From: Chthoniobacteraceae bacterium
GTDB taxonomy: Bacteria; Verrucomicrobiota; Verrucomicrobiia; Chthoniobacterales; Chthoniobacteraceae
NCBI GenBank assembly: GCA_947471505.1
Contig: CANIWM010000051.1
Location: forward strand, 1 to 46,916
Length of the DNA: 46,916 bases
Direction: 5' to 3'
Below are positions 2 through 34,100 of this stretch, in pieces (the first letter of the stretch is position 1; each line of letters opens with the position of its first letter). Below the pieces are notes generated by a model. It was not told the DNA's origin and did not search any database. It saw only the letters and a list, made by a program, of their open reading frames with translations. Both the position numbers and the translations under genes were made by a program.

Positions 2-322
2 AAGTGGGAGAAAAACGACAAAGGCCAGTTCATCCCCGTCGATGTCCCCGGCACCGAGCGCGTCCTCCCGTGCGAACTCGTCCTCCTCGCCATGGGCTTC
101 CTCGGACCCGAGCAACCACTGCTCGAAGCCCTAGCCATCGAGCGCGACCCACGCAGCAACGCGAAAGCCGAGCACGAAAAATACGCAACGAACATCCCAA
201 AAGTCTTCGCCGCCGGCGACTGCCGCCGCGGACAAAGCCTCGTCGTCTGGGCCTTCAACGAAGGCCGCGGAGCCGCCCGCGAATGCGACAAGTTCCTCAT
301 GGGCGCGACGGACTTGCCGTAG
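2..322 (+). CDS. gltD: Glutamate synthase small subunit, 3' end (partial)
   Basis: The reading frame is open from base 2 and ends at TAG 320-322, so only the last 106 residues are present. They match the C-terminus of the NADPH-dependent glutamate synthase beta subunit (GltD). Visible are the [10 protein letters not shown] stretch, the [16 protein letters not shown] segment that closes the second nucleotide-binding fold and contacts FAD, and the [15 protein letters not shown] tail. GltD takes electrons from NADPH and passes them through FAD and iron-sulfur clusters to the large subunit GltB, which makes glutamate from glutamine and 2-oxoglutarate in the cytoplasm. The rest of the gene, and presumably gltB, lie upstream of the window. 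The related small subunits of other Fe-S oxidoreductases share this fold, but the FLGPE and VVWAxNEGR strings favour GltD. Confidence 0.93.
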
Positions 323-612
323 AGATTCGCGCAGGGCACCGCTATCCCCAATCCTAGACCGTCTGTTACACCAACCGGCAACGCTCCCATTTCGGACTTC
401 GCTCTCGCCTGCCCCGATTGCAATTTCCTCGCCCGCAGTGGAGAACAGCTCGCCAAATTCCAGCGAAACATCGCCGAAAACTCAGCAAGAGCCCGGCTCA
501 AAGAAGGCGAGTGACTGTAGGAATCGAAAAGGGCTGCGTCAGGCTGCGTCAATCTGTCGGCGTGCTCGCGAATTCATCCTCCCGCTTCCGATGACTCTGA
601 AATCCTTACTGT
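323..612. other. Gap between gltD and a convergent LysR gene
   Basis: I see no convincing gene here. The only structure is a perfect 10-bp tandem duplication, GGCTGCGTCA twice, at 532-551. No hairpin with a T-run follows gltD, so its terminator is not obvious. A 65-codon frame at 438-635 overlaps the LysR stop and has a composition unlike its neighbours. Confidence 0.5.
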
Positions 613-28300: not shown

Positions 28301-30950
28301 AATCGACGTGAACCAGCTCACCGGGGCAGGAACGAACAACGCAATCACCCTCGCGCCCGGCGGCTTCAATGTCAGCGCGACGACCATCAACGTGAGCGGC
28401 GGAAACGGCTACTCGCTACGCCTGCCCGCCATCACCAGCGTCGGGGCAAATACCAGCACGTATAACGGAAACAGCGCACCCATCAGCATCGGCACCTACA
28501 CCGCCAGCGTCACCGGCGCACACGTCCTCGGCCTCGGCGGAACGAACACCGCGAATGTCGTGACGGGCGTCATCTCCAACGGCAGCGCAACCTCCGTGGC
28601 TGTGCTCAAAACGGGCAGCAGCTCGTGGGACTTGCAGGGCGTGAGCACCTTCACCGGTGCACTCACCGTCCGCGAAGGTACGCTCACGGTTTCTGGCGGA
28701 AAAACCGGGAACATTGGAGCTATCACCGTCGGCGACACCGCGGGACTCAGCGCCACGCTCAATATCTCAACCGGCACTTATCCCCTCGCTGCCAATAATT
28801 TCAACGTTGGTAATCAGGCCACCACGCCGGGAACGGCAACCGTCAATCAAAGCGGCGGTGCAGTCTCGTTCACGGGCGGCAATCAGCTTCTGATCGGGCA
28901 GAACACGGTCGGAAACACAGGCACCTACAACCTCAGCGGCGGAAGTATCACGACCATCACCAGCGCGACCCGCGGCATCATGCTCGGTGTGAATGCCAAC
29001 GCGACCGGCATCTTTAACCTTAGCGGCACCGGCGTCCTCAACATGACCGCAGCCTCCGGCGGCGGCGGTAACGCATTTCTCCAAATTGGGCGCTCTGACA
29101 CTACTACCGCCGACAACACGACCACGCTCTTCAACCAGACCGGCGGCACTGCAAACGTCGGCATTCTCGGCATCGGCGGCGGCGGCACCGGCGGTGTGAA
29201 TGGTATCAACCTCAGTTCCACCCTCACCCTCACGGGCGGGACTTTCATCGCCAGCACGTTCACGGTCCTTGCAGCGGGTAATACCAACACCGCCACCATC
29301 AACATCGGCGGCACCGCAGACGTGACGCTTCCCGCATTCCCGACAGTGCGCGGCACCAGCTCCACTGCGACGATCAATTTCGACGGCGGCACGCTCCGCT
29401 CACTCGCCGCGAGCGCCACCTACATGGGCAGCCTCACGAACGCCTTCATCAAGGCGGGCGGCGCAAAGTTCGACCTCGCGAACAACATAACCGTCACCCA
29501 AGCACTGCTCGAGCATCCCATCTCGACAGGCGGTGGATTCACCAAAGCGGGTGCGGGGACTTTGACGCTGACGGGTCTGAATAGTTACACGGGGAAATCG
29601 ACCGTCTCAGCAGGCGGCCTCACTTTCAACACCATCGGCAATGTCGGCGGCGGAGCCAGCACCCTCGGCGCACCGACGACGGTTGCAGAAGGCACCATAG
29701 ACCTCTCGGGAATCCTTACATACACAGGCGCGGCGACTTCCACGGACCGCGTGATCAACCTGCCCAACCCGGCTGTGGGCGTCACCATCAACAACAGCGG
29801 CTCCGGCCTGCTCACGCTGAACGGCGACGTCACCGGCAACTCCTCGAACCTCCTCTACCGTGGAAACGGAAACATCACGATGAACGGGGTTATCCCAGCC
29901 ACCCATACCGGCACCGTCACCCACACAGATGCCGGCACATTGACCCTCACGAATGCGGCCAACGCCTTCACCGGGGCACTCGTCGTCTCCAAAGCAATCG
30001 TGAGCGTGGACACCATCGATAACAAGGGAGTCGCATCCGGCATCGGTGCAGGCACGCTGATCACGCTCGGGCAATCTGGCTTTAATAACACCGGCACCTT
30101 CCAGTTCACCGGAGTCGGCGGCGGCTCGACCGACCGCGACATCGACATCCAGAGCAACCTTGCACAAGCCAACGGCGGCATTATCGAAAACACCGTCGCG
30201 GGCCAATTGCTCACGCTCAGCGGCAACGTCACCGTGGGCGGCACGGGCACACTCCCGACTCTCGGCCTCACTGGCGTAGGTAACGGCAGACTCAGCGGCA
30301 ACATCCTCGGCACATCGCCCCTGGCCATCACCAAATCCGGCACCGGCACTTGGACGCTCGCTGGCGCAAACACGCAAACCGGCGTGACCAACGTGAACGC
30401 GGGCACGCTCAATATCACCGGCAGCATTAGCGGGAGCGCAGTGACCGTGAACAACACCGGCACCCTCGGCGGCATCGGCTCCACCGGCGCACTCACCGTG
30501 AACAGCGGCGGCACCGTCGCACCCGGTCAATCGCCCGGCGTCCTGAGCACGGGAGCCGCGACATTTGCCGCAGGCAGCACGCTGGCAATCGAGGTCAACG
30601 GCCTCACGCTCGGCACGCAATACGACCAACTCAGCGTCACCGGCGCGGTGAACATCACAGGGGCCACGCTCAGCCTCAGCGGCTCGTATTTTACCACGCC
30701 AGCCATCACGAGCGACCTCTTCACCATCCTGCTCAACGACGGAAACAGCGACGCCATCACCGGTACCTTCGCCGGCCTCGCAGAAGGCGCGCACGCATTC
30801 TCCGGCTTTGGGCAAGACTACACCATCAGCTACATCGGCGGAGACGGGAACGACATCGTCCTCACCGCAGTCCCCGAGCCCGGCAGCGCAGTGCTCGTGC
30901 TCGGCGGTCTGGCACTCCTCGGCGCACGCCGCCGCCGCCGCATGGAGTGA
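22365..30950 (+). CDS. Giant PEP-CTERM protein with autotransporter-associated beta-strand repeats
   Basis: A 2861-residue exported protein. The N-terminus has a twin-arginine-like signal (TTRRAVILASSIASVFA), probably cleaved after AGGASA at 38. Most of the length is a parallel beta-helix of passenger-associated transport repeats (TIGR02601/PF12951 type) with the text GTLTLTGxNTYTGxTTVxxGTL. It ends in the PEP-CTERM anchor VPEPGSAVLVLGGLALLG plus ARRRRR (about 2836-2861), which exosortase cuts to tether or release surface proteins (established for the PEP-CTERM family). Two modules each open with a W-rich start: IWQGATDTLWALDSNW (39-54) and DWNGGAADGLWTTAGNW (from 1640). The start at 22365 is chosen because longer frames lack a signal. 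No exosortase gene is in the window. Confidence 0.93.
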   Translation: MKTPTSPSPNRFTTRRAVILASSIASVFASVKAGGASAIWQGATDTLWALDSNWTAPVPGLGDTATFNGLGNGNVILDFGVGGVTVGNLTFDTSSVAGYTLGSGAAGSQSLTLGNAGTISLTSTVAANQLVNAALTLGNDGTAQTFTLANESTTNSLTVAGSIAGSIGSGVKTLAVAGSGATTLSGTISNGTGGTVAISKTGNGTLALSNTGNTFSGGVTVAAAAGVVTATMAAGTNASGLGTGAVSIGAGSTVNVQAINTVNVTNALNNVFTGSGLLKLTFAANTTARNTSLGDLSGFAGTIQLSNLGVTGDKLNTNANMVNLAAALVVDSGSTLFVSGTTSFNGGISLNGIGNNEGRGAIRMGTAVLRGNISLAGSTTIGLDANTYGILTGNISADGLATLTFGGSQAGNGTLTGNLSDGPGTLSLTKANAGTLWLTGANNYTGATTITGGRLQLGLGGTTGSLSPNSSVIVSSGASITFNRSNAMALGTDFGAISGAGNAIQNGTGTTTFGGATALTYTGITAINRGTLALDFAALATPTNMINSGSALQLGGGTLSVLGKSAGATAQTFNGTALTAGRSVIAPNRGTGTSTTVTLGALTSSAGSSINFTPNTAWASGANATTAGVASATEIVTVTSVTRNGTAITMPGAGAFAYIGANVFNNTGASTRYAVVQGAAAAPYQIVGGPLSTAFAVTGGSASTVYSTGAAQTLTGATTNYALISTAAGAVTIANGGFAYTLNGYLGTAAGTVTMSGTGALTIGAEKDFVVNNAAAGGLTISSVIANSAGGASSVTNSSTSTGVLTLSGTNTYTGGTFFNGGTTIVVSDAAASNNAPLGFVPAAATPGNLTFNGGTLQLSPTAAMTLAAQRGINLGASGGTINLTTAFAVTMNSIIAGIGGLTLNNSSTSTVAIGGVNTYTGGTFINGTGLIVPVNVASPFGVGGILTLNGGQMRATTTGTVTIPNPVNIAANTTFPTAATEKSLIFSGPATLSGTRTLTSTVGNTVAGITVQFSNGIGESAALSGLTKAGTGNLTLSGLNTFTGPTNISAGRLSYTKSFALYANNPASWTDTNITVANAATMMLNVGGVNEFTSANVATIAGLGTATGGFQTGSTLGLDTTNGSLTHNAAIVNPNAGANAINLLKIGANNLTLNGTNTYTGITTIQGGTVFANGPSATSQIIINGGTNTTLQVTNPGATGTGSINIATGATTPSLLFRLDGGGNISLPNSLVGNSGITTNIDVNNNGTGTNGVVQLNGIPTTGIGNVTFNITGGNGYSLHIASIFASGGANGTTLVNPTTASVTFGNISSITNNFAYNWQFDGTATGNAVIGAITNGSGPLSVTKANTSIWTLSGNNTYSGATAVNAGTLILSGTNTGAGATTVVGGTLQAGADGALNPNSAVTMTDAAAAVLDLNGKLGTIASLAGGGPLGGNVTLGSGTLTTGDSTSTSYSGNITGAGNLVKAGTGAFTLATPQAYTGTTAVNAGSLLVNSTLASSAVTVAGGTLGGTGTVAGTVTISAGGMLSPATSTTAGTITVAGLTLDAGSGIAYEFGGTSDLVAVTSANGLTLNGGALSLFATGGATPLVTNGTYTLFNYLTAFGGALTNLSVANSQAGKTYSVADTGSTITLTVGTAVSTDWNGGAADGLWTTAGNWTGGTPNSVGAVATLGTTPTSPTSIAVDGAKTVGSIIFDNANAYTITGGATDTITLDSGIAAAVLSVTTGSHTINAPIVLNGPVNITPGAGTSLTLGGVLSGSKTVTYNGAGTVTVSGTNTYSAGTTLVSGTLSLANGAALGTGTFTISGGTLDAASALTLTNNNAQVWSGDFAFTGSNNLNLGTGAVSIPVSRTVTVNGSTLTVGGAISGSGLIKAGNGTLELTGNNTFTGALTVSAGTVILSGENSARPAATNGQTVVNGTLQLQAKAGNTTAGVSTALSGERTANQPLLLNTGGTLQLRSDSAVTFAGANGMGGLGSATVAIDVNQLTGAGTNNAITLAPGGFNVSATTINVSGGNGYSLRLPAITSVGANTSTYNGNSAPISIGTYTASVTGAHVLGLGGTNTANVVTGVISNGSATSVAVLKTGSSSWDLQGVSTFTGALTVREGTLTVSGGKTGNIGAITVGDTAGLSATLNISTGTYPLAANNFNVGNQATTPGTATVNQSGGAVSFTGGNQLLIGQNTVGNTGTYNLSGGSITTITSATRGIMLGVNANATGIFNLSGTGVLNMTAASGGGGNAFLQIGRSDTTTADNTTTLFNQTGGTANVGILGIGGGGTGGVNGINLSSTLTLTGGTFIASTFTVLAAGNTNTATINIGGTADVTLPAFPTVRGTSSTATINFDGGTLRSLAASATYMGSLTNAFIKAGGAKFDLANNITVTQALLEHPISTGGGFTKAGAGTLTLTGLNSYTGKSTVSAGGLTFNTIGNVGGGASTLGAPTTVAEGTIDLSGILTYTGAATSTDRVINLPNPAVGVTINNSGSGLLTLNGDVTGNSSNLLYRGNGNITMNGVIPATHTGTVTHTDAGTLTLTNAANAFTGALVVSKAIVSVDTIDNKGVASGIGAGTLITLGQSGFNNTGTFQFTGVGGGSTDRDIDIQSNLAQANGGIIENTVAGQLLTLSGNVTVGGTGTLPTLGLTGVGNGRLSGNILGTSPLAITKSGTGTWTLAGANTQTGVTNVNAGTLNITGSISGSAVTVNNTGTLGGIGSTGALTVNSGGTVAPGQSPGVLSTGAATFAAGSTLAIEVNGLTLGTQYDQLSVTGAVNITGATLSLSGSYFTTPAITSDLFTILLNDGNSDAITGTFAGLAEGAHAFSGFGQDYTISYIGGDGNDIVLTAVPEPGSAVLVLGGLALLGARRRRRME
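22960..30420 (+). repeat. About fifteen PATR-type coding repeats
   Basis: Units of about 30 residues, each a K-x-G-x-GT start followed by LTLSGxNTYTG and a GTL close, recur at roughly 22961, 23650, 23885, 24776, 25090, 25447, 25797, 26397, 26755, 27655, 27975, 28605, 29545, 29925 and 30330. Spacing is irregular, so the copies are old and divergent and are separated by other beta-strand text. In between lie two copies of a second module with GGNGYSL (about 26185 and 28400). Confidence 0.8.
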
Positions 30951-30962
30951 AAATCACAGATT

Positions 30963-31028
30963 TACCGGGGCTTCTTGACGGGTGCCCCGGTGGAGTAAGG
31001 CTGGAGTTTCTTGACGGGTGCTCCAGCC
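30963..31028. repeat. Tandem covarying hairpins with identical 12-nt loop
   Basis: Hairpin 1 is ACCGGGGC (30964-30971) with GCCCCGGT (30984-30991). Hairpin 2 is GGCTGGAG (30999-31006) with CTCCAGCC (31021-31028), closed by a T-G pair. Both loops read TTCTTGACGGGT. Counted from the loop, base pairs 3, 6 and 8 differ by compensating changes on both arms, so the structure is conserved while the stem sequence is not. No T-run follows either. The type of element is unknown to me. Confidence 0.75.
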
Positions 31029-31045
31029 AAAGGATGGAGGAACTG

Positions 31046-31126
31046 ATGGGGGCGCTACGGGATCATGGTGCGCGACCACAGGACTTTCACGGTGGCGGTG
31101 TCGCAGGGGTGCGGCACCGCCACTGA
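31046..31126 (+). CDS. Candidate 26-residue leader peptide
   Basis: An ATG with GGAGG five bases ahead (31036-31040) opens a frame of 26 codons, rich in His, Gly and Arg (ends GVRHRH), stopping at TGA 31124-31126. The good Shine-Dalgarno with ideal spacing is rare in this window. The last 11 codons and the stop cover a 14-bp hairpin, so ribosomes translating it would melt that stem. It lies 17 bp before the CotH gene. It may also be chance; the product resembles nothing known. Confidence 0.35.
   Translation: MGALRDHGARPQDFHGGGVAGVRHRH
31092..31123 (+). terminator. 14-bp hairpin before the CotH gene (terminator or attenuator)
   Basis: GTGGCGGTGTCGCA (31092-31105) pairs fully with TGCGGCACCGCCAC (31110-31123), one pair being T-G, around a GGGG loop. 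It is followed by TGACTCTCTTCAATTTTCT, only partly T-rich, then ATG 31144. It could end transcripts of the giant gene, or act as an attenuator or a translation block for the next gene. Confidence 0.55.
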
Positions 31127-31143
31127 CTCTCTTCAATTTTCTA

Positions 31144-34100
31144 ATGAGCAAACGACTTTCACACTTCATCGCCCTCTGGCTCGCGCTAGTCGGAAGCGCC
31201 TTTGCGCTCACGAACGGCAATTTTGAAGCGACGCCGTTTTCCACCGGATGGACGATCACGGGAGCACCGGTCGTCACGCCGGGGATCGCGCCGGGCTCCA
31301 CGCAAGGTGCGCGTTTTTCTACCACGGGGCAGGCGCTTTCGCAGACGGTTGCGTGGGGCGCGGAGTGGTCGCTGGAGAATTACTTCGCCATCCGCTCCAC
31401 CGGAGTCCGTGCGTATTCCTGCATCATCGGCCTCGGGGCTGCGCCCAACGGGATCAACCTTCGCTACGAAGCGGGTGCGTTCCATGTGTATAATGGGACG
31501 ACTGCCGCGTGGGTCGCGCTGCCGACGCTGGGCACCGTGCTGGCCTCCGTGGATGCAAATGCTGACGGCGATTTGGACGATGTGGGCGATACAAAGAATG
31601 TCTATCGCATCCGCATCACTGGCCACTCGTTCGGCACCGCAGGCTGGAACTACGAGGTCTCGGTGAGCGATGCAAACTCCCCTACATTCACTCGCAACGT
31701 CGCAAACCTCACGACCAACCAGAACGCCTCGGGCGCGGCCAACTTCCCGACGCTGATCAAATACAGCGCGGAGTTCGGAAGTAACCCCGGCTATTGGCTC
31801 GACGATGTGAAATCGCACGAGGACGCATTGCCTGTCATTCGCTCGTTCCTCACGACGGCGGGCAACATCGGTGGTCCCGGCTTGCCTGCGAGCGCGCAAC
31901 TCTCGTGGGCCGTGGATGGCGCGGATGCCGTTTCCATTTCGGGAATCGGTGCCGTCGCCACGACTGGCACCGCGACCGTGAGCCCGACGGCGCAGACGAC
32001 TTACACGCTCTCGGCCACCATCGGCGCTTCGTCTGCCTCCACGGCCACCGTCGTCATCTCGGTCAATGCGGCTCATCCCAGCATCACCGAGTTCCAAGCC
32101 GCCGACGGCACCCTCCTCGACGTGGACGGTGACAAGCCCGACTGGATCGAGCTTTTCAACCCAAACGCCTTCACGCTGAACCTCGCGGGCTACCAGCTCA
32201 CCGACACCGCCACACCGGGCGACAACTGGATCTTCCCGCAGACGAACCTCGCGCCCGGCGGCTACGTCGTCGTCTTTGCATCGGGAAAAAACCGCGCCAT
32301 CTCCGGCGCGCAGCTTCACACCGACTTCAACCTCGCGGCCAGCGGCGAATACCTTGCGCTGCACGCGCCCGGCGGCGTGCTCGTCCAGCAGTTCCCGGCG
32401 GACTATCCCACGACGCAGAAGTTCCCGAAGCAATACGCCAACACCAGCTACGGGCTCCTCGGTGGACTCGCGAAGTATTTCAAACCCTCCACGCCCGGCG
32501 CAGCGAATGGCTCAGGCTTCGACGGCGTGGTGGAAGACACGAGCTTTTCGATAAAGCGCGGCATCTACTCGACCGCGCAGACGGTCGCCATCACCACCGT
32601 CACACCCGGCGCGCAAATCCGCTACACAACCACCAGCGCGGAACCTACCGCGACGACGGGCACGGTTTACACCGCTCCGCTCACCATCTCCGCGACGACC
32701 ACGCTGCGGGCCGCGGCGTTCAAGACGAACTTCGCGCCGACGAATGTGGACACAAACACTTACATCTTCCCCGCCGATGTGGTGACGCAGGCGACGATGA
32801 GCACGACCATCACACAGCACGCGACGTACGGGCCGCAGATGGTCGCCGCGCTCACCGATTTGCCGAGCATCTCCGTGGTCACGCCCGGCACCATCGTGAA
32901 CGGAGCCGACACCGTCTGCTCGTTCGAGTTCATCCCCACCGTCGGTGCGGGAGTGCAGGAAAATGCCGGCGTCGAGCTGTTCGGCGGCGCATTCACGAAC
33001 TTCGCGAAGAAGAGCTTCCGCTTTAAGTTCAAAGCCGACTTCGGCGCGACGAGCATCAAGATTCCCGGCCTTTACGCCAACCACGCGCACGGCTGGAAAC
33101 CGATTGAAGAGTTCGACGAACTCGAAGTCCGCAGCGGCTCGCACGACATGGCGCTGCGGGGATTCTATATGTCGAATCCTTTCACCGATGCGACGATGCT
33201 CGACGCCGGAAACTGGAACCCGCACGGACGCTTTGCCCACATGTATATCAACGGCGTTTACTGGGGCATGTTCCACGTCCGCGAGCGATGGGACGCGGAC
33301 CTCCACACCGCGTATCTCGGCGGACCATCGAGCGACTTCGAGAGCATCAACGGCAACCTCAACGTCGGCGGCTGGGCCGACCCCGGCGACCCGTACGACG
33401 GCGACGGCGCATCATGGACGCGCATCAAATCGCTCCGCACCAACTACACGCAACTCAAGCAATACATGGACATGCGGAGCTACGTGGACTTCCAGCTCAT
33501 GTACATGTTCGGAACCAGCGAGAACGAATGGCGGAGCACCGGCCCGAAAGACATCGGCAGTGGCGCGAAGTACATGATGAACGACTCCGACGGTTTCCTC
33601 GCCACGGCAGCCTACGGCGCGCTGGCTGCGCAAAACACAAATCGCGCTGCGACCCGCTCCAATCCCGCCGCCGGCAGACAAGTTGGCGACGGCCCCGGCG
33701 GCGTCTTCAGCCAGCTCTGGCAGGAAGGACACGTGGACTACAAAATGTTCCTCGCCGACCGCATCCACGCGCTCTTGTTCAACAACGGCGCGCTCACCGT
33801 CGGGAAAACCCAGGCGCGTCTCACCGGACTCTGCAACGAAATCGAACGCGCATTTTACGCCGAAGCCGCACGCTGGAGCACCGTCAGCGCCACACAATAT
33901 CGCACGCCGTCCACATGGGCCACCGAGCGCGACAACATGCTCAACAACTGGCTGCCAGCGCGCGGCCCCATCTACATCGGCCAACTGCAAGGCGCGGGCT
34001 ACTACCCCACGACCGCCGCGCCCGCGTTCGCCAGCGCCACCGTCGCAAATGGAGCCACCGTGAGCTTCCCCGTCAGCGGCGCCACCGTCTATTTTACCAA

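Follow-up and report, generated by a model that had tools for sequence, protein, structure and literature searches.

A four-hairpin element with a repeated loop 3' of PEP-CTERM genes in one genus of Chthoniobacteraceae

Protein-sequestering RNAs of the CsrB/RsmY type carry a repeated loop motif on several hairpins whose stems are free in sequence, and ANTAR-bound tandem hairpins are two hairpins side by side that share a loop and are bound as a pair, with hexaloops and a location in leaders. The element described here shares with the CsrB/RsmY-type RNAs the display of one repeated loop motif by several hairpins on free stems, and differs from them in its loop (YTTGACGGGT as against GGA), in its small number of hairpins, in its tie to the 3' ends of coding genes and in having no Rfam match. 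It does not belong to that class: its loops read TTCTTGACGGGT or TTTGACGGGT, and GGA is found in a single loop only, that of hairpin 1 in genome G009 (TTCTTGACGGAAAT). With the ANTAR-bound hairpins it has in common that neighbouring hairpins come as a pair with one shared loop; its loops, however, are of 12 nt, and they lie in 3' regions as part of a longer, four-hairpin structure. Small RNAs derived from bacterial 3' UTRs, and mRNA 3' stem-loops, are likewise found immediately downstream of a stop codon, on the same strand and with a strong final stem, whereas the present element has no U-tract directly after its final stem and carries repeated conserved loops. REP/BIME and other extragenic palindromic repeats are also palindromes placed after genes, but they number in the hundreds in comparison to a handful of copies of the element, whose loops and not stems are conserved and for which no RAYT transposase was seen. 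Judged by these likenesses, the element would work most like a multi-hairpin, loop-presenting RNA.

The window and six further element loci gave no match at the Rfam 15 gathering threshold and none above chance at the E-value threshold, in keeping with the initial annotation of this DNA, which had found no known RNA class to fit. The open-access literature, with most subscription journals outside the scope of the search, held nothing relevant on PEP-CTERM genes with hairpins or on Prosthecobacter small RNAs.

Paired hairpins and the full element in the window

The window, by which we mean the whole stretch of 46,916 nucleotides analysed (locus C51 of genome G000), contains two hairpins 36 bp apart with loops identical over 12 nt (Table 1), and the loop 12-mer has no third site in the window with one mismatch allowed. 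This identity, reported in the initial annotation, was confirmed to the base; the coordinates also bore out its statements that stem pairs 3, 6 and 8, counted from the loop, are altered on both arms and stay paired (G-C in hairpin 1 vs A-T in hairpin 2, C-G vs T-A, and A-T vs G-C, respectively), and that the gap between the flanking genes measures 193 bp (30951-31143). Pair 1 differs on a single side (C-G vs T-G). The predicted folding energy was -18.4 kcal/mol (z -3.5) for hairpin 1 and -17.7 kcal/mol (z -4.4) for hairpin 2. When nearby hairpins with at least 7 Watson-Crick pairs, a loop of 10-14 nt and a distance within 100 bp were considered, a shared loop 10-mer was found once in the real window and in none of 100 dinucleotide shuffles of it.

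The whole intergenic gap (about 190 nt) folds far better than its shuffles (z -8.6), because two further hairpins follow the first two. These lie beyond the hairpins of the initial annotation and extend the structure to about 31125; the paired hairpins are thus the first half of a four-hairpin element (30963-31125), which begins 12 nt past the stop codon of the preceding gene.

Table 1. Features of the element and its neighbouring genes (positions in the window)
Feature	Position	Strand	Remarks
Giant PEP-CTERM protein with passenger (PATR/autotransporter) repeats, 2923 aa	22179..30950	+	Pfam PATR 1e-43, PEP-CTERM 5e-05; TIGR02601
Hairpin 1	30964..30991	+	8-bp stem, arms 30964-30971 / 30984-30991; loop TTCTTGACGGGT, 30972-30983; covariation helix 1
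Hairpin 2	30999..31028	+	9-bp stem, arms 30999-31007 / 31020-31028; loop TTCTTGACGGGT, 31008-31019; aligns with form-B hairpin 1
Hairpin 3	31035..31089	+	Long interrupted stem; sequence varies among copies, pairing kept; covariation helices 3 and 4
Hairpin 4	31090..31125	+	15-16 bp G+C-rich stem, GGGG apex; covariation helix 5; terminator-like
LTD/CotH secreted protein, 1306 aa	31144..35064	+	Neighbour; link to element not consistent

Copies of the element and covariation of the stems

The loop 12-mer occurs at four sites in its own genome, which form two pairs, both with the 36-bp spacing; single-hairpin copies were rejected there, the 12-mer being present at both paired sites only and the BLAST remnants being noise. 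A two-hairpin covariance model was built from both of these pairs and the pair at G006:C12 (pattern search), and within the genus it brought up G006:C31 and G009:C183 as two more, with no match elsewhere in the family. This form, which we call form A, comprises five full copies in three genomes of one genus (G000:C51, which is the window copy, G000:C7, G006:C12, G006:C31 and G009:C183), and they occupy three kinds of locus. G006:C31 is the counterpart of the window locus by a common neighbouring LTD/CotH gene, and G006:C12 that of G000:C7 by a common downstream EVE-like gene. When 210 genomes of the order were searched with a covariance model of the full element, these five copies only were found (E 1e-26 to 3e-38), with all further matches at E 0.02 or worse. 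The E-values are rough; the sequences are few and come from three related genomes, at least one of them a MAG. TTCTTGACGG is kept in 10 of the 10 form-A hairpins 1 and 2, and hairpin 1 of G006:C31 shows poorer pairing.

Covariation was computed on a MAFFT alignment of the five form-A sequences, in which 92.8% of the pair cells hold standard pairs. Changes on both sides were observed in 16 of the 59 pairs, in comparison to a mean of 6.1 for shuffled alignments, none of which reached 16 in 500 shuffles, and to 1-4 for slid structures; the slid control leans toward the proposed structure because the structure was derived from the same sequences, and counts of double changes are more robust than it. 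The last stem is the most conserved helix. The element thus shows the compensatory changes of a conserved structured RNA, well above both controls, and this supports the earlier claim of selection for structure and for a recognised loop. One simple recent duplication, which the initial annotation had also argued against, is excluded because the loops agree where the stem sequences are unrelated.

Since four of the five form-A copies trail PEP-CTERM genes, the 3' flanks of such genes were compared in G000, G006 and G009, the comparison covering 115 flanks. It yielded a second form, form B, with four full copies (G000:C14 near 56 kb and near 79 kb, G000:C22 and G006:C255) and one truncated copy consisting of hairpin 1 only (G000:C14, ~65.2 kb), these counts being minimum numbers from about 1.4 Mb of the three genomes. 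The stems of form B are unlike those of form A, most of its loops carry TTGACGG, and its last stem is likewise capped by GGGG; the loop of hairpin 1 is TTTGACGGGT, and that at the tip of the long hairpin reads TCTTGACGGT, TTTTGACGGG or TCTTGGTGGG. With a model made from form B only (R3), the best non-B matches in 1.4 Mb were the form-A copies, at 48 bits and E 7e-08, and the R3 alignment places form-B hairpin 1 on form-A hairpin 2. The best matches of the form-A model in other sequence (1.3 Mb) were two form-B copies, which scored weakly (E 0.01 and 0.09). We read the two forms as one family, in which TTGACGG is retained in 17 of 19 motif hairpins, the other two having TTGGTGG. The expectation of the initial annotation, that a covariance search would bring up more copies in which the stems differ and the loop does not, was thus borne out (five full copies of form A and five diverged ones of form B). 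The element is not widespread in the Verrucomicrobiota, form A being present in only 3 of the 210 genomes of the order.

Several other readings of the matches were rejected. Matches of the exact paired-loop pattern in distant genomes, of Muribaculaceae, Actinomycetes, Deltaproteobacteria and Lentisphaeria proved to be lysine-rich repeat coding sequence (PVKK-like) on the other strand and not hairpins, a match in G096 was a similar coding-like repeat, and viral contigs gave no match to the pattern. The element does not code for protein, as its frames are interrupted or unshared, with stops and frame-shifting indels that differ among copies; a small ORF starting near 31046 was rejected for having a frame not common to G006:C12. 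TTGACGGG resembles a conserved stretch of 16S rRNA, a resemblance of only about 8 nt that was treated as chance.

Position relative to PEP-CTERM genes

In nine of the ten copies the element comes directly after the stop codon of a PEP-CTERM gene and has the orientation of that gene, starting 12-20 nt past the stop codon. Eight of these nine copies have their first TTGACGG at a distance of 24-31 nt from the stop, and in the ninth the open frame runs into the element. TTGACGG within the first 150 nt was found in 9 of the 115 PEP-CTERM 3' flanks, all nine being element flanks, and the other 106 flanks have no element. The position is that of a structured 3'-UTR element of PEP-CTERM genes, with the G009 copy as the exception: it lies between a divergent GntR-like gene, 138 bp away, and an LTD/CotH gene, 5' of the latter. 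Homologues of the G009 EVE gene follow the element at C7 and C12, and in G009 this gene is preceded by a LarB-like gene, with neither element nor PEP-CTERM gene; because the locus has neither, the PEP-CTERM gene and the element come or go together at the EVE locus (the names EVE, GntR and LarB are readings of translated sequences only).

At C51 and C31 and in G009, the element is followed by a co-oriented gene for an LTD/CotH protein, as would be expected if the element were a 5' leader (riboswitch-like attenuator) of these genes. This explanation has hardly any probability and was rejected, being contradicted by the synteny tests, in which no element was present at the G006 (74% identical) and G000 (69%) homologues of the G009 CotH gene or at the G009 homologue of the CotH gene of the window, and the C7 and C12 copies precede an EVE-like gene. 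The adjacency can be chance because about 50 CotH matches are found in each of G000, G006 and G009 (0-15 in other members of the genus). PEP-CTERM C-terminus matches number 41-48 in each of these three genomes.

Within the window, the stretch at 30332-31123, which takes in the C-terminal coding end of the giant PEP-CTERM gene and a large part of the element, is similar to the C7 paralogue, while both sides resemble the orthologous C31 locus, which suggests from the sequence comparison that a cassette of C-terminal end and 3' UTR was exchanged at the window locus. The copies are partly homogenised by exchange, and as they are related by descent and partly by exchange, the nine PEP-CTERM copies are not nine independent events. 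This mosaic of C7-like and C31-like sequence, together with the differing genomic settings (G009 included) and the G000 and G006 homologues of the G009 CotH gene that have no element, could also speak for a DNA element, either a mobile repeat of the non-autonomous kind or a site of recombination at which a nuclease or recombinase recognises the hairpins in single-stranded form. We consider a DNA element very improbable, however, in view of the few copies, the fixed orientation and position after stop codons, the lack of an observed transposase and of a clear target duplication (a GTAGTC repeat is present at C7 and C12 only), and an exchange that is accounted for by the homology between the genes. 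A phage or plasmid origin was also rejected on testing, with no match in phages and a single 32-bp stretch in one plasmid. RNA rather than single-stranded DNA is favoured by position and orientation, and from these an RNA element in the mRNA 3' UTR is likewise the favoured form.

A candidate role for the repeated loops

The element is a previously uncatalogued RNA family with real covariation, located on genes for very large surface proteins. Its structure, its covariation, its fixed loop and its recurrence after PEP-CTERM stop codons are shown by the sequences. An unchanging loop, carried by several stems of free sequence, points to a partner that reads sequence as the selecting agent, and we infer that the element is transcribed, is bound and affects its mRNA. 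About an even chance is given to its being a clade-restricted structured 3'-UTR element on some of the PEP-CTERM (exosortase-sorted) genes, often giant ones, with loops bound in trans and a last stem that protects or ends the transcript. Under this model, a constant loop (consensus YTTGACGGGT) would be displayed by several hairpins, whose stems may have any sequence that pairs; a single factor acting in trans would dock at the loops, either an RNA-binding protein or, with lower probability, an antisense RNA; the long, G+C-rich, GGGG-capped last stem would block 3'-5' decay or help to end transcription; and the translation or stability of costly PEP-CTERM mRNAs could thereby be controlled together. 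A more specific proposal, which we hold only tentatively and find on the whole doubtful, is that of an RNA regulon, in which a loop-reading factor of the Prosthecobacter-like clade would bind YTTGACGGGT hairpins in the 3' UTRs of chosen giant exosortase-sorted adhesins for joint post-transcriptional control. To our knowledge, little is known about post-transcriptional control of such adhesins; if a dedicated protein reads the loop, the element would reveal control of this kind and provide an RNA-protein recognition pair to study.

The repetition of one loop over several hairpins and the strong last stem would also suit a small-RNA gene, either driven by a separate promoter or released by cleavage from the 3' end of the mRNA, that acts in trans by loop-target pairing or by protein titration in a CsrB-like manner. 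The G009 copy lies in the region between divergent genes, where it would depend on a promoter of its own. This is nevertheless rather unlikely, as no sigma-70-like promoter was found in 30800-31250, the exact complement of the loop is absent elsewhere in the own genome, where only the four known sites on the + strand occur, and the site is tied to PEP-CTERM stop codons in 9 of 10 copies.

Improbable, to a greater degree, is a mere structure for 3'-end processing, termination or mRNA protection with the loop kept for folding reasons. It is consistent with the 15-16 bp last stem being the most conserved helix, with two form-B copies that sit between convergent genes, and with a simple scan in which the first 140 nt contained no further intrinsic terminator, but it does not account for several hairpins keeping one loop while their stems are unrelated. 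Hairpin 4, moreover, has the G+C-rich stem of a canonical intrinsic terminator and not the U-tract directly after it, and was rejected as one; no terminator was called there or in the nine element flanks, the scan of the flanks being limited to 140 nt and requiring 4 T in 6. A terminator-like score was obtained in only 19 of the 106 other flanks, which makes this comparison weak.

Other structures were observed near genes of these kinds. Ordinary terminator-like hairpins with a T-run follow other PEP-CTERM genes (L114, L116, L124, L127, L128 and L140), and on G000:C98 (L135) the PEP-CTERM gene at 260-532 (-) is followed in its 3' flank by a different strong hairpin structure of roughly 100 nt, CTGCGACGCC...GGCGTCGCAG. 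Upstream of the G000:C5 LTD/CotH gene lies a tandem array of about seven G+C-rich units of 42 bp (L101:1081-1372).
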